Origin: Nitrospinota bacterium
Lineage (GTDB): Bacteria > Nitrospinota > Nitrospinia > JACRGO01
Direction: 5' to 3'
Length of the DNA stretch: 18,432 nt
Assembly: GCA_016212295.1 (NCBI GenBank)
Contig: JACRGO010000082.1
Location: 1-18,432, forward strand
Position numbers and translations under genes: made by a program. Below, piece after piece: positions 5,377 through 16,508 of the stretch. The notes below the pieces were generated by a model, which was not told the DNA's origin, did not search any database, and was given only the letters and a program-made list of their open reading frames with translations. Each line of letters opens with the position of its first letter. The stretch's first letter is position 1.

Positions 5377-5753
5377 TCAACACCTCATTTTTATTTTTCT
5401 AATTTGAATAGCGCGTGTGATCCTCTATTTGTATATGCAACCCACAAAAAACATTTTTCAAATAATTGAGCAAGCTCCTTCCTCAAAAGCATGCTTTCCC
5501 CATTTGTTGGTAGTTTTTTTATGTAATCTCTTTAAAATCAAAGCGTTAAAGTACAAGACAAGATCAAGAACCAGAGAATTAATATAAGATTAAGGGCGCA
5601 CTAAAGGTGACTATTTAGAGGAAAAAAACAGGAAGCGAAAGGAAATGCATTATCCGGAAGAGTCATTAATAATAGAAAGATGGAATATTTTGTTGCATGA
5701 AGCTATAATCTTTATGATTTTGCTGTTTATTTTTGAAAAATCGACATTCCACT
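5377..5753 (+). promoter_or_regulatory. Divergent intergenic region; possible promoter of the large HD-NACHT-WD40 gene
   Basis: This 377-bp AT-rich gap separates the minus-strand cluster from the plus-strand giant gene. It holds copy 2 of the 20-bp repeat near its left end. On the plus strand a perfect TATAAT stands at 5704-5709, about 45 bp before the ATG at 5754. The sequence 17 bp upstream of it (TGGAAT) is a poor -35. No convincing Shine-Dalgarno site precedes the ATG. I see no other gene, repeat or RNA in the gap. Confidence 0.35.
5430..5466 (-). promoter_or_regulatory. Promoter-like region with copy 2 of the 20-bp repeat, upstream of the receiver gene
   Basis: The minus strand repeats TTTTTTGTGGGTTGCATATA exactly (5451-5432). 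It is followed by TATACA (5435-5430) and preceded by TTGAAA with the same 20-nt gap as in copy 1. The receiver start is 54 nt further on. An exact 20-bp match at the same place relative to two starts is unlikely by chance and suggests a shared regulator. Confidence 0.5.
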
Positions 5754-8700
5754 ATGAAAATCGAAGAAGCGGATAGCTATTTCAGAAACCAATTTGAGAA
5801 AAGCTGGAAAAATGGGTCCCGCTGGTGGGAGAGATTTGTCTCAAGACGCGCTGAATGGGAAAAACAAAAAAGGAGCTTGTTTGAGTTTTCCGAGACATGG
5901 CAGATGGTGGACCATGGATGGGACCATGCCAATGCCCTGTACGCCTCCCTTCCGCGGTTCCTCTGGGCCATGGAAGCGCATAACGGCAAGAAAATTCTTG
6001 ACAACGGCGCTGAACTTTTTGCCTTTATGGCCGCTGCATATTTGCACGACGTGGGAATGCACTGCCTCTCAACAACCTTGAATGGGGAATTTAAGGAAGC
6101 CGCCCGCAACCCCACTTTTCCCTATTCCTCGGAAGTATTGCTGACGTGGTTGAACCTGGAGCATACGGAGGAAGAGCTGCCTCCCTCCCATGACGCCATT
6201 GTCATAAGGAGGCTTCATCCAGAAATCGGCGCATGGATGTGCGAGTCAGGGGATATATTGATCCAGCCGGACGAAAAGAAAACAATAGGGCAGATTGTTT
6301 TCCGGCACGCCAAAAGAACGTCCAAGAACGGCGGCGCCTGCGGAAGCATGGCACTAGAGGGAGGACCCGTTGAACCGGTCCGGACAGGGTTCATAGCCTC
6401 CCTTATTGCCCTGGCCGATTCCTGCCAGTTGGGCGGCCTCAGAATAACCGGATGGGAAAAACATCTAAAAAAACTGGAAAGCGAAATAAAAATATGGGAA
6501 AAAGTCCAAAATGACATGGATTCAGAAAAGCAGCAACTAAAAGAATGGTGCGGTTCCTACTCCAATCTGCTTCGAGTTCAAATCGAGCACATCTATAAGC
6601 ACCTTGTCGTGGGAGGGGTGTCTCTCGGTCCCGATGGTTTTATCCTGATCCCTGCAGGTACGGATGTGGAGCCATCATGGTTTACGTTAAAGCAGTATAA
6701 GAATTTTACCCGCGAGGCATTGTTAAAACTGGCCCATGAGGATATTAATGGAGAGCTTGGAATTTCTGATAAAGATGGTGGCGTGTCCCAATATTTCTCT
6801 GACTTGGGAATTAAGCTTCCGGAGATTCCGCTTGTGAACACAAGTTCCTGGGAGAATATCAACAAATCATTGAAAGAAAATGACAAGCTGTGGGAAGTGC
6901 ATATAAGGGAGCTTTATGACAAGGAAAAACATAGTAAAGCCATCCTGCCCAAACCCCTCAAAAAGAGAGAGGATTTTGTTCCAGCCCATTTCCGGGAGGA
7001 ACTGGAAAATTATGTGGTCCCGACAATAAAGGGCAAAAATCTTGCCGAGGAAATTGAAAACCTCGTCTCTAAGGGGGAAAACGTCTTTGTCATGGGAGAA
7101 AGCGGCATGGGAAAGAGCCTTCTCCTTGCCTATTCCTTTCTCCAATTTAAGGGACTCTCCAGCTATTACACCATAGACCGGACCCAGGGACTCGATGTCT
7201 ACCGTTCGGAATATGTGCTTTGCGCTCTGCGGGAACGGGCCGTGGAGTTGATGGAGCTGCAAGTATCCCCGCCTGCAAAATCAGAATCCAAAGCCGGGTG
7301 GATATGGGAAAGGGAATACTTGGAAACGGTTTTGCGGGCCTTCTCCCAAGAGAGCCCGGATCAAAATCTCGTTATTTTCCTGGACGGGCTTGATGAGAAT
7401 TACCTGGAAACCCGGGAGAGCGATTTTATCCTGAATATCCTCAAATGTCTCATCCAGGATAAGGAACTGAAAGTTGTTTGGATATTGAGTTCCCAGTCCC
7501 GGCCAGGAGTGGAGTGGACGGAAAATTACTTCACAAGATTTCTCTTTCAGGGACTTGAACGGATGGAGGCGGAGCGGCTTCTTTTAAAACACCTTCCGGA
7601 AGATTTTTATGATAAACATCAGGAATATATTTCCGAGTTTTTGAACAGGGCGGAAATGGGATCAGGATATTACGATCCTGAAATGATCGCCATCACCGGC
7701 CGCGCTTTTCTGGAAAAACATTCTCAAAAGGTAAGCTTTATTTCCAGTGAGTCCTTCAGGAGTTTTATTGATGCCCTTCCCCTGAACTATAGGGAAAAAT
7801 ATGATTGGCTATTTTCCCGGTATACGGAATCCTCTAAATTTAAAGATGTGCCGAGCCTCCAGGAAAACGCCAAAAGATGGTCAGAGCTTGTTCCTGACGT
7901 ACCCTATAACCGTTTTCTTTATGATATTTTTGCCGTCCTTGCCTTGATAAGGGAGCCTATTCCTCTTGCTATCCTTTCATGGGCCTTGGAGAAGGAAGAC
8001 CCCAATCCGAAAAAAGATTTTCGGGGGCGTAAAGTTTGCAATTTCAAGGGCTATCCCATCAGTGTCATGGAGGAAAATAGTTTTCTCTTTACCGCCATAC
8101 GGGACCTCCAGAGGTTTATAAAGATTGTGGATGAAAAGGAGAAACGTTTCTCCTTCTGCAAGGAAGCCGTAAGGGAAAGCTTTATGAAGTTTTCAGAAAA
8201 AGACGGCGAAATCGTGCAATCCGCCAGGGCCAGGCTTACGGCCCTGGCCATGGAAGAGATGGCCTTGGTCCTGGAGGATAATCTGGCCTCGCGCCCTGAT
8301 TATATGATGACGGAGCTTTTATTTCTGGGTTCCCAGGACCGGGAAAGGGCTAAAGTTTTTCTTGATAAGCTGTTAAGACTTCCCTTTTTACCGGAATGGC
8401 TGGAGGCCCATATAAAACAGAGAGACCTCCAAGGCGCTAACCGGGGAAAATCAGCCGGAACTCCGGTTTCATCGTTCGTAGAGGATCTGGGTTTGTTTGA
8501 TGCAATTTTCCTGGATGAGGGGCTGGCGCGTCAAAAAGATTTGATATGCCAGGTTCTTGTCGATTGGCAATATCCATTGAACGCTTATATAGAAATTATT
8601 GCCTCTTTTGTCCGTAATCATAAAGATTTAACCGAATTCTGGCCGCCCAACCCGAAAGATGCCTCAGGACTTTTGAGTCCGCGAGATGGTTATGGACATA

Positions 8701-10742
8701 AAGTAAAAGGCCATACCGGCCCAGTCACCTGCATGGTAGTGCTTCCTGATGGTCGCCTGGCTTCAGGCAGCGAGGATCATACGATCCGCATCTGGGATAT
8801 TAATGCAAAGACATCCATAGTGCTGGAAGGGCATAATAGCAAAGTGATACATCTTGCGGCCTTTCCGGATGGACGGCTGGCATCCGCATCGGAATCAGGT
8901 GAAGTTAGGGTTTGGAATATTGAGAGAAAAACGTCAAAGAAACTGGAAAATAATATTAGATTGATTAAATCTCTTGCAGTTATTTATGATCGGTATTTGG
9001 CATTATTTGGTAACGATAATTCATACTGTTATGATACTTACGCTGATGACATCGAGATTGATAGGGCAGCTTTTTTTATAGGGAATCTTGTGATTTATAG
9101 TTCAAAGGAAGTAGGTCTAATAGATTCTTATGGTCAACTAAATTTTTTGAGTGAAGATGTGGCTAAATGTACAACAGATAAAATTCAAAAATGGTGGGAA
9201 TATGCTGATTATTTGAGATTTGCAATCAACTCAGGAGAGCAATTAATTGCAGCATGTTTAATTGATAAAGAAACGATAACAGATTTAGAAGTGTTAATTG
9301 ATAATCATCTATTTCCCCCAAGAGAGTTCACATTAACGACTGAAGAGGTAGAATATTTGCTGTGTGGTGTTTTGCATGATGTGCCACTCATGACCCATGA
9401 TAGGGGCTTCATTAAAGAAACAAATGGTTTTTTTATACTAGAAAATATGTCCACTGAAGAAAAAAAAGGTGTTCTTGAATTCGCTGGGCGTAGCGGTTTC
9501 AGGGTAGTTAGTTTGGACATGTGTGAAAATAGCGTAATATTTCAATTTAAAGAGGATGCTTATTTATACTGGATATCGTGGAAAGGCACTGGAGATGTAA
9601 AAAAACTACAGTTTAGTGTTAGAGACTTTCAAATAGGTAGCGACCATATTTTAAAATTACTTCCTAATTGTCGCTTGGCAATTACTGATAGTTTTGGGAG
9701 AGTGCAGATTATTAATCTTAACAACCAACATGAGGAGCTATTTTGTGATTCTTGTTTTTCTCCAACTACCGATTTTATAGTTCTTCCGGACGGACGGGTA
9801 GTTTTAAATAATAGAAAAAATAATAATATAAGTGTTTATGATATTTCTAAAAATGAACATACGGTCATCTTACAAACAGGGGATATATCACCAAATTTAT
9901 TTATACTTCGCGAAAATTTAGGGGTTATATATGGAGATAACGACGAAACTGTGGTTGATATATGGGATGTCTTTATGAATAAAAAATGCGCAAGGCATAA
10001 GTTAAAAGGGTTCTGGCAGAATTTAACAAGTGTAATTACTAATCCTTATGATGAGTACATCATGATATTAGATTTGGGAAACATTGTATTCTTAAATTTA
10101 GCATCAGGAGAAATTATTGAGCCTGATTTTAAGGAGATGGAAAAACGCTCGTATTCTTTTGATGCTACCCTCTCTGAGAAAATATTTCTTGTCGATGGAA
10201 ATTGGGCAGGAGTTTTTAAACACTCAGATCACGGACAAGAACAGCTATGGATATTAGATAAAGAAGGAAACATCGTTAATAATGTTAATTATGACGGCAG
10301 ATTCCTATTAGCATTGCCTGATGGACGATTGGCTTATATTTCTTCAAGTAAAAACAGACAAGGAATCGTCATTCGAGATGCAAATTTACGTGAATGTGAT
10401 TTTTATTCGACAGATTCCCTCATTCAGAGCATTTATAACTTCCCCCAAAACCATTTAGCCGCCGCCTGCGTTGATAACTCCATCAGGCTTTGGAATCTTG
10501 AATCAGGTGATTGTAAGGTTTTTCAAGGACATTCCGGAATTGTGCAAGAAGTCATTGCCTTGCCGAACGAACGGTTGGCTTCAGCGGGACAGGACAAAAC
10601 CATTCGTGTTTGGGACATGGCTACCAGGGAACAAACAGCCATAGGTTTTTTTGATGGTTTACCGTCAAAGATGGACCACATTCCTGTTCACCAAACTCTT
10701 CTGCTTTTGACTTCCACCGGATTAAAAGCCTTCAAATTGTGA
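5754..10742 (+). CDS. HD domain - NACHT/STAND NTPase - WD40 repeat protein (bacterial NLR-like)
   Basis: About 1662 aa. I prefer the ATG at 5754; a TTG at 5733 would add seven residues, and neither has a clear ribosome binding site. Domain order: (1) HD phosphohydrolase-like domain, residues about 50-225, with H54/H57 (DHGWDHA), H98-D99 (LHDVGMH), H185 and D222 as likely metal ligands; (2) NACHT-type NTPase, about 420-700, with Walker A GESGMGKS (448-455) and Walker B LVIFLDGLDE (539-548), the D-x-x-D-E form of NACHT; (3) a helical region; (4) WD40 repeats from about 983 to the end, with motifs such as PDGRLASGSEDHTIRIWD, long enough for about two propellers. In STAND proteins the repeats sense a ligand and the NTPase oligomerises to switch on an N-terminal effector; here the HD domain would be the effector, perhaps acting on nucleotides. 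A role in phage defence is inferred from architecture. Residues about 1063-1563 are encoded by strikingly AT-rich DNA. Confidence 0.9.
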   Translation: MKIEEADSYFRNQFEKSWKNGSRWWERFVSRRAEWEKQKRSLFEFSETWQMVDHGWDHANALYASLPRFLWAMEAHNGKKILDNGAELFAFMAAAYLHDVGMHCLSTTLNGEFKEAARNPTFPYSSEVLLTWLNLEHTEEELPPSHDAIVIRRLHPEIGAWMCESGDILIQPDEKKTIGQIVFRHAKRTSKNGGACGSMALEGGPVEPVRTGFIASLIALADSCQLGGLRITGWEKHLKKLESEIKIWEKVQNDMDSEKQQLKEWCGSYSNLLRVQIEHIYKHLVVGGVSLGPDGFILIPAGTDVEPSWFTLKQYKNFTREALLKLAHEDINGELGISDKDGGVSQYFSDLGIKLPEIPLVNTSSWENINKSLKENDKLWEVHIRELYDKEKHSKAILPKPLKKREDFVPAHFREELENYVVPTIKGKNLAEEIENLVSKGENVFVMGESGMGKSLLLAYSFLQFKGLSSYYTIDRTQGLDVYRSEYVLCALRERAVELMELQVSPPAKSESKAGWIWEREYLETVLRAFSQESPDQNLVIFLDGLDENYLETRESDFILNILKCLIQDKELKVVWILSSQSRPGVEWTENYFTRFLFQGLERMEAERLLLKHLPEDFYDKHQEYISEFLNRAEMGSGYYDPEMIAITGRAFLEKHSQKVSFISSESFRSFIDALPLNYREKYDWLFSRYTESSKFKDVPSLQENAKRWSELVPDVPYNRFLYDIFAVLALIREPIPLAILSWALEKEDPNPKKDFRGRKVCNFKGYPISVMEENSFLFTAIRDLQRFIKIVDEKEKRFSFCKEAVRESFMKFSEKDGEIVQSARARLTALAMEEMALVLEDNLASRPDYMMTELLFLGSQDRERAKVFLDKLLRLPFLPEWLEAHIKQRDLQGANRGKSAGTPVSSFVEDLGLFDAIFLDEGLARQKDLICQVLVDWQYPLNAYIEIIASFVRNHKDLTEFWPPNPKDASGLLSPRDGYGHKVKGHTGPVTCMVVLPDGRLASGSEDHTIRIWDINAKTSIVLEGHNSKVIHLAAFPDGRLASASESGEVRVWNIERKTSKKLENNIRLIKSLAVIYDRYLALFGNDNSYCYDTYADDIEIDRAAFFIGNLVIYSSKEVGLIDSYGQLNFLSEDVAKCTTDKIQKWWEYADYLRFAINSGEQLIAACLIDKETITDLEVLIDNHLFPPREFTLTTEEVEYLLCGVLHDVPLMTHDRGFIKETNGFFILENMSTEEKKGVLEFAGRSGFRVVSLDMCENSVIFQFKEDAYLYWISWKGTGDVKKLQFSVRDFQIGSDHILKLLPNCRLAITDSFGRVQIINLNNQHEELFCDSCFSPTTDFIVLPDGRVVLNNRKNNNISVYDISKNEHTVILQTGDISPNLFILRENLGVIYGDNDETVVDIWDVFMNKKCARHKLKGFWQNLTSVITNPYDEYIMILDLGNIVFLNLASGEIIEPDFKEMEKRSYSFDATLSEKIFLVDGNWAGVFKHSDHGQEQLWILDKEGNIVNNVNYDGRFLLALPDGRLAYISSSKNRQGIVIRDANLRECDFYSTDSLIQSIYNFPQNHLAAACVDNSIRLWNLESGDCKVFQGHSGIVQEVIALPNERLASAGQDKTIRVWDMATREQTAIGFFDGLPSKMDHIPVHQTLLLLTSTGLKAFKL
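8940..10440 (+). other. AT-rich, diverged segment inside the WD40 region
   Basis: Within the giant gene, DNA from about 8940 to 10440 has many AT-rich codons (for example 18 of 60 bases are G/C at 9121-9180), while sampled flanks have more (26 of 60 at 7561-7620; 31 of 60 at 8281-8340). Over the same span the WD40 repeats become hard to see, with only scattered LPDGR-like turns. They return to near-canonical form after 10440 (SIRLWNLESGDC, KTIRVWDM). The frame stays open throughout. This suggests exchange or fast evolution of the recognition surface. The edges are estimates. Confidence 0.6.
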
Positions 10743-10855: not shown

Positions 10856-10859
10856 CTAT
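10831..10859. repeat. Short duplicate of a stretch of the CYTH-nucleoside hydrolase gene
   Basis: 27 of 29 bases match 12542-12570 in the same orientation, with a 19-bp exact core AACTGGATAAGCTTATTGC (10835-10853 and 12546-12564). In the second copy these bases encode part of the nucleoside hydrolase (SGNKLIQF on the minus strand). Here they overlap the stop of the DUF234 relic. The two copies bracket the ATPase/DUF234 relic, 1.7 kb apart. Confidence 0.6.
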
Positions 10860-12244
10860 GTGGATACTTTCTCCGTCCCCCTGAAAAGAACGACCTCATC
10901 CCTCCCGGCCGCCTCCAGCATTTCCCTTGTAAAACCCTTTTTAGAAAACAGGGCGAATCTCCTGGCCGTCTTTTTATTCCCCCAGGTTATCCTTTCCGCT
11001 TTCGCCTTCAATTCCCCAAGGATATTCGTCCCGACGGGCTTTTCGGTCCATTTGACCTCGGCGCAGAAGATAAGGTTCCTTTCCTTATTGATCCCCGTGA
11101 TATCGATCTCCTCGTTCCTGTCCCACCATTTGCCAAGGCGGTCAAAAGGGGGAAAGGTTTCCGCGTTCTCCCGCATTATCTCCTGGGCGATTCTTTCATA
11201 GGCAAGGGAGAGGTGATGCGGCATGTCTTGTTTTATGGCGGCCATGACGGCATCCATGCGGTCCATCTCCAATTTTCCCCTCCTCGGGAATACAAACCTG
11301 AATCAAAATAGGAAAAACCGGTCCTTGATGCGATAAAGCCCCTTTTTGCTCTTCAAGGGCTTTTCCTCGGTCACGGGAACTTCTCTTTCCACGATATCCA
11401 GATCAGAAAGGATTCCGAGGTATTTATTCGCCATGGGCTGCGGAATGCCGGTGGCGTTCACGATCTCCGAGAGTTTTCTCTTTCCGTGGGAGACCGCCTG
11501 AAGAAGGGAAAAGTAATGGCGCGGTTCCCTGAATTCTTCCCTCAAAAGGAATTCCACCTCGTCATAGAGCGTCTCCCCCTTCCTGAGCACATGGTCCGTG
11601 AGGTTTTGCCGAAAGTCTTTTTTCTCCGGGAATTGCAGCCAATAAGCCGGAACCCCGCCCGCGACCGAATAATGCATGACCCCGTCCTCGAAGGATTTTC
11701 CCTTTCTGAATTGGCGGACGGCGGAGAACGGCATGGGTTGAATCTTCCACTGTCCCGTTCGCCTTCCGTAAAGGGGGGATTTGTGTCCCAGGACCTCCGT
11801 CTCCATCATGCCGACGCTCGATCCCAGCAGGATGAGAAAAACCTTGCTCCCGGAGAGGTATTCGTCCCATCCCTTTTGAAACAGGCTGGGGATTCCTGGA
11901 TTGGATTGGATCAGATAGGGAAACTCGTCAACGGCAAGGATGAGTCTTTCATTTTTGTCCCGGAGATACCTGAAGGCCTCCTCCCAGGCGTCGAATCCCC
12001 TTGTCAAAAGCAGCGGCTCGCGAAAGAATTCGCCGACGAGGATGGAAAACCTACGGAGCTGTTCCTTTTCGTTCGTGCTCTCGGCAAGGAAATAGAGGTG
12101 CAGCTTGCCCTTCACGAAGCGCTTGACGATTTCGGTCTTTCCGATCCTGCGCTTGCCCCAAAGGACGATAAACTGGGCCTCCAGACGGCTATATTTCTCC
12201 TCAAGAAAGGAAGCTTCCCGGTTTCTTAAACCCGCCTGGCGGGG
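10856..12244 (-). pseudogene. Archaeal-type ATPase with C-terminal DUF234 domain, broken
   Basis: One reading frame runs from 12244 down to the TAG at 10856, interrupted by a single TGA at 11303-11305. The upstream part encodes NREASFLEEKYSRLEAQF and then a P-loop WGKRRIGKTE (around 12134-12157), Walker B ILAVDEFP, and a winged-helix region near LSEIVNATGIPQPMANKYL. The downstream part is DUF234 with a PD-(D/E)xK-like pattern (EEIDITG...FCAEVKW). The TGA sits in RFFLF-stop-FRFVFPRRGKLE, where family members, as I recall them, have Trp, so one TGG-to-TGA change would explain it. The frame also lacks any ATG, GTG or TTG before the P-loop: the first candidate, GTG at 12115, lies after Walker A. 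Thus both the start and the middle are damaged. The two ORF pieces may be annotated separately, but I read them as one relic. Confidence 0.8.
12229..12244 (-). terminator. Possible weak hairpin terminator after the CYTH-nucleoside hydrolase gene
   Basis: Directly after the TGA at 12245 the minus strand reads CCCCGCCAGGCGGGTTTAAG: a GC-rich inverted repeat with a very short loop and only three T. It could end transcription of the fusion gene, but the T-tract is poor. It also occupies the place where the start of the following ATPase should be. Confidence 0.3.
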
Positions 12245-14632
12245 TCAGGAAACCAGCCGGGAAAAGAAGAACTCCTCGAACGCCTCTCTCTCCACGTCTC
12301 GCGCCACGCCGATAACCGCCTCTTTCGGGTCGCGCCACTCTGGATTGCGCGTGGGACGGTCGTCCGGAAAGATCATGCCGTTGGTGAACTGTCCCCTAGT
12401 TTCCACATTGATGATATGTTTTTCCACATTCAAGAATGCAGGGTTAATCACATAGGCCACGGCCAGAGGGTCATGCAGGTAACAACCGGGCAGCCCCTCG
12501 TTCCCCTTATAAAAATCCATGTACTTTCTTGAGATATCCCTTATGAACTGGATAAGCTTATTGCCGCTATTGGCTGAAGCGGCCCGCTCCAGAGCGCCGC
12601 GGCGAAGCAAGACTTTATGGGTCACGTCCAGGCCCACAAAGGTCAAGGGGACGTGTTTATTCTTATCATCATTAAGGAGAAGTGAGTCCTTGCAAAATTT
12701 GACTACTTGTTCGGCGGCGCCAGGATCGGAATAGACGTTGAACTCCGCGTCCGCCCGGATGTTGCCTGCATCGAAAAAGACGCCTCCCATGGCCACGACT
12801 TCTTTCAAATTTTTCACTCCCTCCGGATCATTTTGAATGGCAAGGGCCAGATTCGTCATCGGTCCGACGGTGATCAATGTAATCTGCTTGGGATGCTCCC
12901 TGGCCATATCCACGATGACCTTCCATGCCGGGCGTTCATCCAGTTTTATATTTTCCGGCATTGGCGTGGAATCCGCGTCTCCCAGGCCGTCCTCCCCGTG
13001 CACCGAGGGGACAGGTTCAAACTCCTTTCCAAGAGGTTTTTCCGCCCCTTTCGCCACCACATGCATCTTCTCTAAGCCAAGGGCGTTAAACACCTTGAAG
13101 ACATTGGGCACAACCTTGTCCACGTGAACGTTCCCGGAAACGGCTGTGACCGCCATTACCTCCAATTCAGGCGACCTCAGGGCCAGAACGAGTGCCAGGG
13201 CATCGTCCACGCCGCAGTCGGTGTCGATGATAACCGGCTTGATCACTGCGGGGGCCATTGCCGTTCTTATAAGGGAGACTCCGCGCTCGTATTTCGACTG
13301 CCGGGAAGGGATCATCCCCAGGTTTTCCTCTAAATAGCAGGCGATTTTTTCAAGTTCCTCCCTGGGGATTCCCTTGCTTTCAATCTCCACTTCATTAAAC
13401 GACCCCAGTTCCTTATTATTCACCAGGTAGGTTACCCGATCGAAAAAGACCTCCGCCTTTTGCCCGGAACTATTTCGTACTATCCATCGCTCCCTGTTGT
13501 TTTGGACCTGTAGCTTTTCCATTATCGATCCATGCGCCGGAGCGACATACTCCAGCAACCGGTAGGGGAGAGCCTTTATCCTTTCTCCCTTGAGCAGGGA
13601 TTCCTTTTGTAAGGCCGTGATCACCGCCTCCTCCTCAATCCTCTCATAAAGACCGGTTGCGGAATATTTTTCCTGGACGGGAAGACGCTTTTTCATGGTT
13701 GCCTTCAGATTCCCCTTGGATTCCCTGATCCTGAAGGAGACGCCATTCGCGAGAAGCGTGAAACGCCCATCATCAAAATAAATGTCGGTCTGCGTGTTTG
13801 CCCTCTTGGGACGATGCTCAACTTCAAGCAAATGTTGCTTCAGGACCTCTGGAAATAAGCTCTTGATTGAATTCATCTCGTTTATGTCGTGCGCGAGGAA
13901 CTTGTACTCGATTTCATAGTGGGAGGGCCGGGATTCCAGAGGTTGTCTCGGCGAAAGCTGGTTTTCCTTTAAAACTCTTTCATAACGGCGAAGGGCGCGC
14001 TCCAATTCCCTTGGATGCATGGGGTCCACTAACCAATAATCCTCGCCGTGGTAGTCTTCCGGTACGGTCTGCACAAAACCCATGTCCCCGTTGACAAACC
14101 AACGGACCCAAAGAAAATGTTCCAAATCCAGGCCGTCCTTGGTAAGGGGGTGAATGCGATGATATTGATCCCCTGCGTATTCGCCTTTTTTCCCTTTAAG
14201 TAATTTAACTTTTTTATATTGCCTGGCAAAGAGGGGGCTGGAGGCGTTGTCCGGCCGGGGATGGAAAAAATAAAGATTCGGGATGTTAATTTCCGGCTTC
14301 TCTCTTGCGATATCCTTTAGTTCTCTATCCTTTTGGTTTGGAGCCAAATTTTTAACGTCAATTGTATCGGAATAGTGCGGGTGGAAGACAGAATTAATCC
14401 TCTGAAAGATGCGTCCATCCTCAGCACGGCAACTATTCCCTACTATCTTAAAAAAATTAGTGCCGTACTTAACCAAGATGACGAAGTTGTTTTCGGTCCT
14501 GGTCAGCCTCCAGTCATCCGGCAGGTGGGCGTTGATTTCCTCCACTATTTCCATGAATTCTTTCTCCGAAATCCTCACTCTCTCATCGAGTCTCTCCAGA
14601 ATGTGTTCAAGTTTCCTTTGAAAGACAAGCAT
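12245..14632 (-). CDS. CYTH domain - nucleoside hydrolase fusion with unknown N-terminal domain
   Basis: 795 aa, ATG at 14632 with AAAGGA 11-12 bases upstream. Residues 1 to about 230 are an unrecognised domain, apparently soluble, with many aromatic and charged residues. Residues about 236-455 are a CYTH (triphosphate tunnel) domain with the ExExK signature E240-x-E242-x-K244 and later basic/acidic strands (ATMKKRLP, YERIEEEAV). Such domains bind inorganic or nucleoside triphosphate with divalent metal. Residues about 466-795 are an inosine-uridine-type nucleoside hydrolase: DTDCGVDDA (470-477, calcium site), VHGEDGLGD, TVGPMTNLA, AEFNVYSDPGAA and the HDP motif (LHDPLAVA), so the catalytic set looks complete and the length is normal. 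The domain combination is unusual; it suggests hydrolysis of a nucleotide-derived substrate, possibly in two steps. It lies 50 bp after vapC in the same direction. Confidence 0.88.
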   Translation of the reverse strand: MLVFQRKLEHILERLDERVRISEKEFMEIVEEINAHLPDDWRLTRTENNFVILVKYGTNFFKIVGNSCRAEDGRIFQRINSVFHPHYSDTIDVKNLAPNQKDRELKDIAREKPEINIPNLYFFHPRPDNASSPLFARQYKKVKLLKGKKGEYAGDQYHRIHPLTKDGLDLEHFLWVRWFVNGDMGFVQTVPEDYHGEDYWLVDPMHPRELERALRRYERVLKENQLSPRQPLESRPSHYEIEYKFLAHDINEMNSIKSLFPEVLKQHLLEVEHRPKRANTQTDIYFDDGRFTLLANGVSFRIRESKGNLKATMKKRLPVQEKYSATGLYERIEEEAVITALQKESLLKGERIKALPYRLLEYVAPAHGSIMEKLQVQNNRERWIVRNSSGQKAEVFFDRVTYLVNNKELGSFNEVEIESKGIPREELEKIACYLEENLGMIPSRQSKYERGVSLIRTAMAPAVIKPVIIDTDCGVDDALALVLALRSPELEVMAVTAVSGNVHVDKVVPNVFKVFNALGLEKMHVVAKGAEKPLGKEFEPVPSVHGEDGLGDADSTPMPENIKLDERPAWKVIVDMAREHPKQITLITVGPMTNLALAIQNDPEGVKNLKEVVAMGGVFFDAGNIRADAEFNVYSDPGAAEQVVKFCKDSLLLNDDKNKHVPLTFVGLDVTHKVLLRRGALERAASANSGNKLIQFIRDISRKYMDFYKGNEGLPGCYLHDPLAVAYVINPAFLNVEKHIINVETRGQFTNGMIFPDDRPTRNPEWRDPKEAVIGVARDVEREAFEEFFFSRLVS

Positions 14633-14682: not shown

Positions 14683-15081
14683 TTATAGATTAATCAAATG
14701 GACGTCACAATATTTTGCGATATCCTTGAAATGGCTGTCCAATGAAAATAGAGACAGGCCCTCCTTCTGGGCAACCGTTGCCAGGACTACATCCACGGTG
14801 CTGAATGTCTTTCCTTTCCTGGCGGCTCTTTGGCTGATGAGCCCGGCGTGATGGTAATGTTCGCGGGTAATTTCCACATACGAAATGGTTTGGAAAAGTT
14901 GTTCCAAAACCAGGATTTCCTGCTGTGTTTTAGCTCCTTGGTAAAGCTCGACTGCAATAGGACCCGCATAGCATGCCTGGTCCATTTTAAGAAACTCCCG
15001 CAGCATTCGGGAAACAGGAGAATCTTTCTTCCGGAAAAATTCTATCCACACGGAGGTATCGATGAGGACTTTACCGTTCAT
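14683..15081 (-). CDS. vapC: VapC-type PIN-domain toxin (ribonuclease)
   Basis: 132 aa from the ATG at 15081, which lies inside the last codons of the antitoxin gene (11-nt overlap), so the pair is translationally coupled. A start nine codons upstream is possible but adds only antitoxin-overlapping residues. The PIN acidic residues are present: D8 (LIDTSVWIEFF), E45 (AVELYQGAK), D97 (STVDVVLA) and D115 (FSLDSHF), so the nuclease should be active on RNA. Length is typical of VapC. It is held inactive by the partner encoded immediately upstream. Confidence 0.93.
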   Translation of the reverse strand: MNGKVLIDTSVWIEFFRKKDSPVSRMLREFLKMDQACYAGPIAVELYQGAKTQQEILVLEQLFQTISYVEITREHYHHAGLISQRAARKGKTFSTVDVVLATVAQKEGLSLFSLDSHFKDIAKYCDVHLINL

Positions 15082-15265
15082 GGCGAGCCGTCTCCCAAAG
15101 GCCGTCAAATCGAAGCTTTCCTTCTTGCTCCAAAAGTTTTTCTATTTTTTTGACGCGAATGTATTCTTGAAGGGCCTCGGCCACGGTTTCCGTTTTTGTC
15201 TTGCGGCCGGAGAGAATCATGGCCGTACTGATAAGATCTTCTGATATGTTCAATGTTGTTTTCAT
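15071..15265 (-). CDS. vapB: VapB-type antitoxin
   Basis: 64 aa. The ATG at 15265 follows a strong GGAGGT site. The N-terminal part MKTTLNISEDLISTAMIL is a ribbon-helix-helix DNA-binding domain of the VapB antitoxin kind (MKTTLNIDdeLl...), followed by a helix EALQEYIRVKKIEKLLEQ and a C-terminal tail with FDGLWE that would block the PIN active site. The gene ends within the start of vapC. It probably represses its own promoter together with VapC. Confidence 0.92.
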   Translation of the reverse strand: MKTTLNISEDLISTAMILSGRKTKTETVAEALQEYIRVKKIEKLLEQEGKLRFDGLWETARHER

Positions 15266-15277
15266 AATACCTCCATA

Positions 15278-15326
15278 ACAATCATTATTGTACATCCACA
15301 TTAAGACAAATAAGATGTATTGTCAA
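15278..15326 (-). promoter_or_regulatory. vapBC promoter/operator candidate
   Basis: The minus strand has a perfect TTGACA (15326-15321), with TAATGT 17 nt later as a weak -10. Just before the vapB ribosome binding site is a palindrome ACAAT-AATG-ATTGT (15291-15278), a plausible RHH-type operator for VapB autorepression. Confidence 0.45.
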
Positions 15327-15527: not shown

Positions 15528-16508
15528 TTAGGCATGCTCTCCTGATATTTCATACTTCCCCATCCCGAAGGTGGCGTATTTCCCGGCATGCACCGCCTCC
15601 CCCAGGATCAGGAAGGGAATAAATTCCTCAAGGTCGCCGGTAAAAGCCACATCCCCAACGAGCCCGCCCATTTTAATTTTTTGCCCTTGGCGATTGGAGT
15701 ATCTTTCCCAATCCTTGAATACCGTCGCATCCTCGATGGTTTTTACTTGTTCCGACTTGGCCGCCAGGCCCTTGAAGTCCAGTTCCAGCTCCACGCCATG
15801 ATGAAAAATCAGCAGGTTGGATATTCGCCTCAAGAGATTTTTAAAAAAGAGATGGAATTCAAAACGACGGCATACCTTCTTGTCGGCCTCAATCCTGAGA
15901 GGCGTAAGAAGGCGCATAGAAAGCTGGTTCATGGAATAATAATCCTCTCTTCCCATGGCCAAATCCCGGAAGGCGGCCACGGATGGCGGCGCGAAAAAAC
16001 TTCAAGATTTAAAAACAGTTTTTGTTATTCCATCTTTATCTGTCCGGCTGACCGATTTTAATAAAAACCTCCCTCCGCCCTTTCCCAGGCCGGCCCGGCC
16101 AAATTCCTCAAAGGCAAAAATGAAGTGGGGCAGATAGTTCCTGGCCTTCCCAATAAGGACCAGGTTGAATATTATTTCCTCTCCTTCCGCGAAAATCCGT
16201 TTATTTTCCAGGGGAGGTTCTATGACAAAGGGGGCGGGAATATTTTTAGTGTTTTTCAGGACCTCGCTGCCTTCTGGAAGTCTGGTATTAAAAAGGTAGA
16301 GAAAGAGGCAATCTTTTTTCCTGGAACAGTCGTCGCAATTATTCTTTTTTTCATCGCATAAAACCTTCCGCAATGCCGTTCCGAAGCCGCCCCTCAAGGC
16401 GGAGCCTTTATACTCAGGAAGCTCAATATGCTCTTCTGAAGCCAGAATAAACTCGAACCTGGCGATGCGAAATTCCTCCAGCTTTCTTAGGATATTTTCA
16501 GCAAGCAT
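15528..16508 (-). pseudogene. cas6: CRISPR repeat RNA endonuclease Cas6 (RAMP), split by an in-frame TGA
   Basis: One frame of 327 codons from the ATG at 16508 is interrupted by TGA at 16002-16004. The N-terminal part has the Cas6 pattern YKGSALRGGFGTALRKVLC followed by a Cys cluster (CDDCSRKKDC) and FGRAGLGKGGGRF. The C-terminal part, after the stop, has QLSMRLLTPLRI, ...GDVAFTGDLEEFIPFLILGEAVHAGKYATFGMGKYEI, the glycine-rich end of this Cas6 family. Joined, the length is normal. Cas6 cuts CRISPR precursor RNA in the repeats. No other cas gene and no repeat array is visible in the window, so this looks like an orphan relic. No good ribosome binding site precedes 16508, and the gene begins 12 bp after the DUF4143 ATPase ends. 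Confidence 0.8.

Follow-up and report, generated by a model that had tools for sequence, protein, structure and literature searches.

A CYTH–nucleoside hydrolase fusion protein whose N-terminal domain has relatives in type III-B CRISPR loci: a candidate nucleotide-degrading accessory

Type III CRISPR immunity works largely via accessory enzymes, among which enzymes that destroy nucleotides are a growing class. Chp, a CARF-HAD phosphatase effector of type III-A immunity, lowers ATP and IMP and thereby shows that an accessory enzyme of type III CRISPR can act on nucleotides (PMC12715507), while the PNP-fold ATP nucleosidases of CBASS, Detocs and other systems, as cited in the same work, are effectors that split ATP and represent N-glycosidic bond cleavage as a means of defence. 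Neither are CYTH domains new to type III systems, as CYTH is listed among the CARF/SAVED-linked domains in a figure legend (PMC10910872) and PADLOC includes a model named CARF7--CARF_CYTH_HD. In its main text, the 2025 CRISPR classification makes no mention of nucleosides or phosphorylases, and nucleosides are likewise absent from the 2024 survey of type III effectors.

The window, i.e. the whole stretch of 18,432 nt analysed here, which is the entire contig, encodes on its minus strand a protein that joins an N-terminal domain without a family name (N-domain), a CYTH domain and an IU nucleoside hydrolase (NH) domain in one frame without internal stop across 795 codons (Table 1). Action on nucleotides and N-glycosidic bond splitting, respectively, are what this fusion would share with Chp and the PNP-fold nucleosidases. 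The catalytic domains of Chp are unrelated, however, and Chp possesses a CARF sensor and transmembrane helices (PMC12715507); the PNP-fold enzymes differ in fold from the NH domain, whose pocket suits free nucleosides, and a PNP domain is absent from the fusion. With the CARF7 CARF-HD and CARF-CYTH-HD proteins (PADLOC PDLC01933 and PDLC01929) it has in common the use of CYTH in type III CRISPR, but it shows no detectable CARF or HD domain, carries a different N-terminal domain and an additional NH domain, and the combination of N-domain and CYTH (N-CYTH) does not match the PADLOC CARF_CYTH_HD model. CYTH-CHAD inorganic triphosphatases of the YgiF type have the same tunnel residues, whereas the fusion lacks CHAD and is extended by the N-domain on one side and by NH on the other.

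Table 1. Coordinates of the fusion protein, its parts and neighbouring genes in the window
Feature	Position	Strand	Basis or remark
N-domain + CYTH + nucleoside hydrolase fusion, 795 aa	12245..14632	-	open frame, Pfam
N-domain, residues 1-235	13928..14632	-	hhalign homology to ~320-aa family of type III-B CRISPR loci
CYTH domain, residues 239-456	13265..13918	-	PF01928 over cut-off; tunnel residues kept
ExExK motif, E240-K244 (E240-I-E-Y-K244)	13901..13915	-	sequence and alignment
Junction, residues 457-466, with M459 (codon 13256-13258)	13235..13264	-	possible NH start-codon relic
IU nucleoside hydrolase domain, residues 467-786	12275..13234	-	PF01156; PDB relatives, e.g. 1mas
DTDCGVDD metal/ribose site, residues 470-477	13202..13225	-	sequence and alignment
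cas6, interrupted by TGA at 16002-16004	15528..16508	-	PF10040
vapC-like PIN toxin gene, 50 nt upstream of fusion, same strand	14683..15108	-	PF01850
vapB-like antitoxin gene	15071..15301	-	PF09957
ATPase_2/DUF234 gene, in-frame TGA at 11303-11305	10856..12115	-	single frame

The initial annotation had recognized CYTH and nucleoside hydrolase domains in one polypeptide, which is borne out by two Pfam matches above their curated cut-offs in a single open frame, with the ExExK and DTDxGxDD motifs at the positions it had given. As the known catalytic residues of both families are all present in alignments, both domains look active by sequence. PF01928 matches residues 239-451 (E 1.8e-10, 41.4 bits versus a cut-off of 23.2), and besides ExExK the domain keeps R301/R303, K314/K315, R331, E333, E335, E416/E418 and S446-K447. 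The ExExK, RxR, lysine, RxExE, ExE and C-terminal SK elements align with CYTH-CHAD and phage CYTH proteins, and the catalytic residues are invariant across the three N-CYTH sequences described here. We infer that the CYTH domain of the fusion would use a triphosphate as substrate. Structure prediction of the full-length protein reached a mean pLDDT of 40, with strand-rich parts of the CYTH region at 60-79; searches of the PDB with CYTH and N-domain-family profiles returned nothing usable.

The NH domain matches PF01156 over residues 467-786 and profile positions 1-296 of 297 (E 1e-80, 272 bits versus a cut-off of 34.2), and a PDB search relates it to Crithidia IU-NH (1mas, E 3.5e-47). Kept besides DTDxGxDD are T593-N594, GN...AEFN (629-632) and H720-D721-P722. 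Conserved pocket residues hold the free ribose in Crithidia IU-NH, and enzymes of this family usually act on free nucleosides; as the ribose-holding residues are retained, nucleosides would suit the domain better than nucleotides. RihA, RihC and Crithidia IU-NH resemble the fusion in possessing a complete NH domain with all these residues, but the window domain is fused, stands outside a salvage setting and scores far under the NCBIfam equivalog cut-offs (RihA 200.6 versus 382, RihC 194 versus 433, UriH 185.5 versus 450 and ribosylpyrimidine nucleosidase 119.2 versus 459). The NH family is found in two of the 77 genomes of the window's phylum; the window genome has one copy, the fused one, and the second gene (genome G067) is joined to different domains and unrelated to the fusion.

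Relatives of the N-CYTH part are rare. Among 84,980 species genomes, scanning with back-translated patterns, the reach of which is limited to close relatives, returned a single one, in a Desulfobacteraceae metagenome-assembled genome (JAABRU010000095.1, locus L002/L010). This protein of 462 aa consists of N-domain and CYTH, lacks NH and is 44-45% identical to the window protein. On the same strand it opens a tight run of N-CYTH, a second CYTH gene (CYTH2), a 617-aa protein read as membrane-spanning from its hydrophobic segments, a uridine phosphorylase above both NCBIfam equivalog cut-offs, Cmr2/Cas10, Cmr3 and a RAMP read as Cmr4. Cmr5 and Cmr6 follow, then a CARF-HD protein (PF09651, PF24391; PADLOC CARF7) and, past it, HEPN-like, nucleotidyltransferase-like, Cmr1-like and Cas6-like reading frames, a 323-aa protein and a reverse transcriptase-primase protein, the names Cmr5, Cmr6, HEPN, nucleotidyltransferase, Cmr1 and Cas6 being taken from reading of the sequences. 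A second N-CYTH locus (L029/L016) was reached by searching with the 617-aa protein and lies in a single-contig genome of 6.9 Mb (G537). Its N-CYTH (471 aa, 42% identical to the window protein), CYTH2 and membrane protein immediately precede cmr2, 27 nt separating the membrane protein gene from cmr2, and neither phosphorylase nor NH is encoded alongside. N-CYTH thus opens a same-strand run into a type III-B operon, from cmr2 onward, in both genomes, at L002/L010 and L029/L016 alike together with cas10 and type III effector genes, and a CARF-HD gene is part of both operons (tested with PADLOC in L010, read by similarity in L016). The first residues common to N-CYTH in the three genomes (MLVFQ, MLVFQ and MLVLQ) support the start methionine of the fusion.

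A profile search of 301 genomes of their class found N-CYTH in these two genomes only, and the N-domain is absent from 76 of the 77 genomes of the window's phylum. The fusion is not conserved in the genomes searched: searches covering close relatives found N-CYTH-NH in no second genome, with L002 encoding a separate uridine phosphorylase and G537 neither NH nor phosphorylase. Scanned viral contigs contained no relative, and plasmids and phages yielded CYTH or NH parts without N-domain; the few plasmid matches of an N-CYTH relative include CYTH-CHAD proteins at 26-31% identity. A CYTH2 profile, run without a positive control, found no match in the window's genome.

Some further features of the two operons were observed. 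In both genomes the first Glu of ExExK is missing from CYTH2 (L002 7180-7806; L029 11484-12125), and the L002 copy is also without the RxExE block; with such degenerate residues, CYTH2 may accompany N-CYTH as an inactive partner. A reverse transcriptase and archaeo-eukaryotic primase (AEP-TOTE) protein of 1062 aa is encoded beside the type III-B genes at L010 12162-15350, and a 1007-aa protein that reads like it takes the same position in L016. Directly upstream of the G537 N-CYTH operon, L029 440-9723 holds a second set of reading frames that reads as type III, named from reading only as Cas10-like with GGDD, Cmr-like RAMPs and a CARF-like frame.

For the first 230 residues, the initial annotation had no match to offer. 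This holds for Pfam, NCBIfam, PHROGs and PADLOC, none of which gave an accepted match to residues 1-235, but homology was found to an unnamed family of about 320 aa from type III-B loci. A profile built from the first two N-domains and run over 395 genomes, irrespective of context, produced one weak extra match (E 7.5e-5), a 301-aa protein which, found blind in this manner, is flanked by a Cmr1-like gene and a TM-CARF gene. Further members are the 323-aa protein of L010, an intact protein of L015, a frameshifted one of L016, which shares its type III-B operon with the G537 N-CYTH, and an internally deleted one of L020. Three N-domains align with the five family members over 209 columns (hhalign 97%, E 8.4e-11), and reciprocal hmmsearch, with 4000 shuffled sequences for comparison, placed no shuffle ahead of a true member either way, the weakest members being near the best shuffles (L020 E 0.047 and L029 E 0.0035 versus 0.25 and 0.019). 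Common to both groups are the blocks HxL...R...PxDWRxT...GxxxR and YhxxxPLTxxGxD...G. Three of the five loci of the ~320-aa family are placed in type III-B systems; L015 and L020 show no cas gene. Judged by these comparisons, the N-domain family is an unnamed one that recurs in type III-B loci. Predicted alone, the N-domain reached a pLDDT of 44, and PADLOC detected no CARF or SAVED messenger-binding domain in the fusion or its parts.

Around the PxDWRxT motif, a stretch of about 40 residues is covered by two weak PHROGs matches, phrog_9397 and phrog_35258. At L010 10620-10731 (protein residues 39-76) this block weakly matches the phage family phrog_9397 (E 4e-4), and the best phage tblastn matches of the protein carrying it are to Lactococcus phages (E 0.06). 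In L015, a 6.6-kb contig (2-6574) without cas genes, the family member is preceded by three large genes lacking an assignment.

In the window, the main genes between 18355 and 10856 are all on the minus strand, in the order HEPN, AAA/DUF4143, cas6, vapB, vapC, fusion and ATPase/DUF234. The cas6 gene, three genes from the fusion, shares 43% identity with its counterpart in a type III-A locus of the same genome; this locus lies on another contig (C92), where PADLOC identified Cas6, Cas10/Csm1 and Csm2-5 and where array-like repeated units occur near 19.5 kb. The tetranucleotide composition of the window agrees with that of C92 (r 0.96, versus 0.65-0.83 with foreign loci), wherefore the window contig seems to be rightly binned. 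Part of the region may be decaying, as cas6 and the ATPase_2/DUF234 gene each contain an in-frame TGA, and the same is suggested for the locus by the absence of cas10 and of a CRISPR array from the window contig together with the stop in cas6. A frameshift as the cause of the two split genes was rejected, since each is one frame with a single TGA, and recoding of TGA is unlikely, as several genes of the window and of C92 end in it; the two TGAs are either real nonsense mutations or errors. The initial annotation had placed the fusion in a defence setting because of vapBC and a STAND gene nearby. This basis is weak and the useful neighbour is cas6, but the defence setting as such has gained from the type III-B placement of the N-domain family and from N-CYTH in type III-B operons of two other genomes, which support it better than could be known then.

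The N-CYTH family is probably part of type III immunity, and for the window copy this holds with somewhat better than even chances. Tentatively, and with less than even confidence, the fusion may be regarded as a rare accessory of type III CRISPR in fused form, with nucleotide degradation as its function. This is favoured by the location of N-CYTH before cmr2 in two genomes and of the N-domain family in other type III-B loci, by cas6 three genes off and the type III-A locus elsewhere in the genome, by the catalytic residues kept in both domains and the L002 uridine phosphorylase beside N-CYTH, and by CYTH in CARF7 proteins and the Chp precedent for nucleotide depletion (PMC12715507). Upon detection of foreign RNA by the type III system, the N-domain, or a partner bound by it, would respond, the CYTH tunnel would remove phosphate from nucleoside triphosphates or from a different triphosphate, phosphatases of the cell would take the product on to the nucleoside, and base and ribose would then be separated by the NH domain, preventing direct reuse, so that the cell is starved of nucleotides and phage replication blocked; in L002, the separate uridine phosphorylase could fill the role of the NH domain. 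Since NH usually requires a free nucleoside, the path from triphosphate to base would be incomplete in one protein and depend on host phosphatases. This extra step, the NH fusion met once, the G537 N-CYTH without NH or phosphorylase alongside, the absence of cas10 and array from the window contig and the stop in cas6 speak against such an accessory, and nucleotide degradation as the effector mechanism is itself somewhat doubtful. That the N-domain is a new type III sensing or docking domain unlike CARF and SAVED, and the fusion a single-chain triphosphatase-nucleosidase that destroys nucleotides in an undescribed mode of type III immunity, is rather unlikely. New, as far as found, are the N-domain, the run of N-CYTH, CYTH2 and membrane protein before cmr2, and the NH fusion. 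Type III-B loci hereby gain an unnamed recurring domain family and CYTH proteins as separate genes, and a nucleoside-cleaving enzyme fused to CYTH in one genome and encoded adjacently in another suggests a testable role for CRISPR-linked CYTH.

Alternatively, N-CYTH might serve type III systems in regulation or in the turnover of signals, binding or hydrolysing a signal or intermediate that bears a triphosphate, possibly in concert with CYTH2 and CARF-HD; NH would then have been added later and have little function or an unrelated one. Both N-CYTH relatives are indeed without NH and are accompanied by a degenerate CYTH2, a membrane protein and a CARF-HD gene rather than by a fixed nucleosidase, and the PADLOC CARF_CYTH_HD model suggests that CYTH works with CARF-HD. 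On the other hand, the NH domain of the window is complete with its residues intact, and, counting the L002 phosphorylase, a nucleoside-cleaving enzyme is present at two of the three N-CYTH loci known; we consider such a regulator somewhat less likely than the nucleotide-degrading accessory.

An artefact or decayed junction, in which N-CYTH and a separate NH gene became joined by sequencing error or by loss of a stop codon in a degenerating locus, is improbable. The junction is tight, with CYTH ending at about residue 456, the first NH strand starting at about 465 and a linker of roughly ten residues, and in the alignment the genes of the N-CYTH relatives end just where the window protein continues into NH; M459 resembles a native NH start and could be the start codon of a formerly free NH gene. 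Inspection of the DNA revealed a CCC run at about 13272-13274 in which one base fewer gives a TAA just before M459, and two neighbouring genes carry in-frame stops. Against this stand 795 open codons with coding composition throughout the frame, no step in GC3 at the junction and no strong ribosome-binding site before M459 for a separate NH, and each interrupted neighbour has one in-frame TGA rather than a frameshift. The fusion is probably real.

Least probable of all is a salvage or housekeeping enzyme incidentally near CRISPR genes, for although the CYTH and NH families are mostly metabolic and the closest solved NH relatives are salvage enzymes, the N-domain is confined in the phylum to the window's genome with its relatives clustering in type III-B loci, and NH is nearly absent from the phylum and falls far short of the RihA, RihC and ribosylpyrimidine nucleosidase cut-offs.

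The plus strand of the window encodes at 5733-10742 a protein of 1669 aa in which an N-terminal HD-CE domain is joined to a STAND-type AAA_16 NTPase and to WD40 repeats; an HD-CE domain is also present in the CARF-HD protein of L010.
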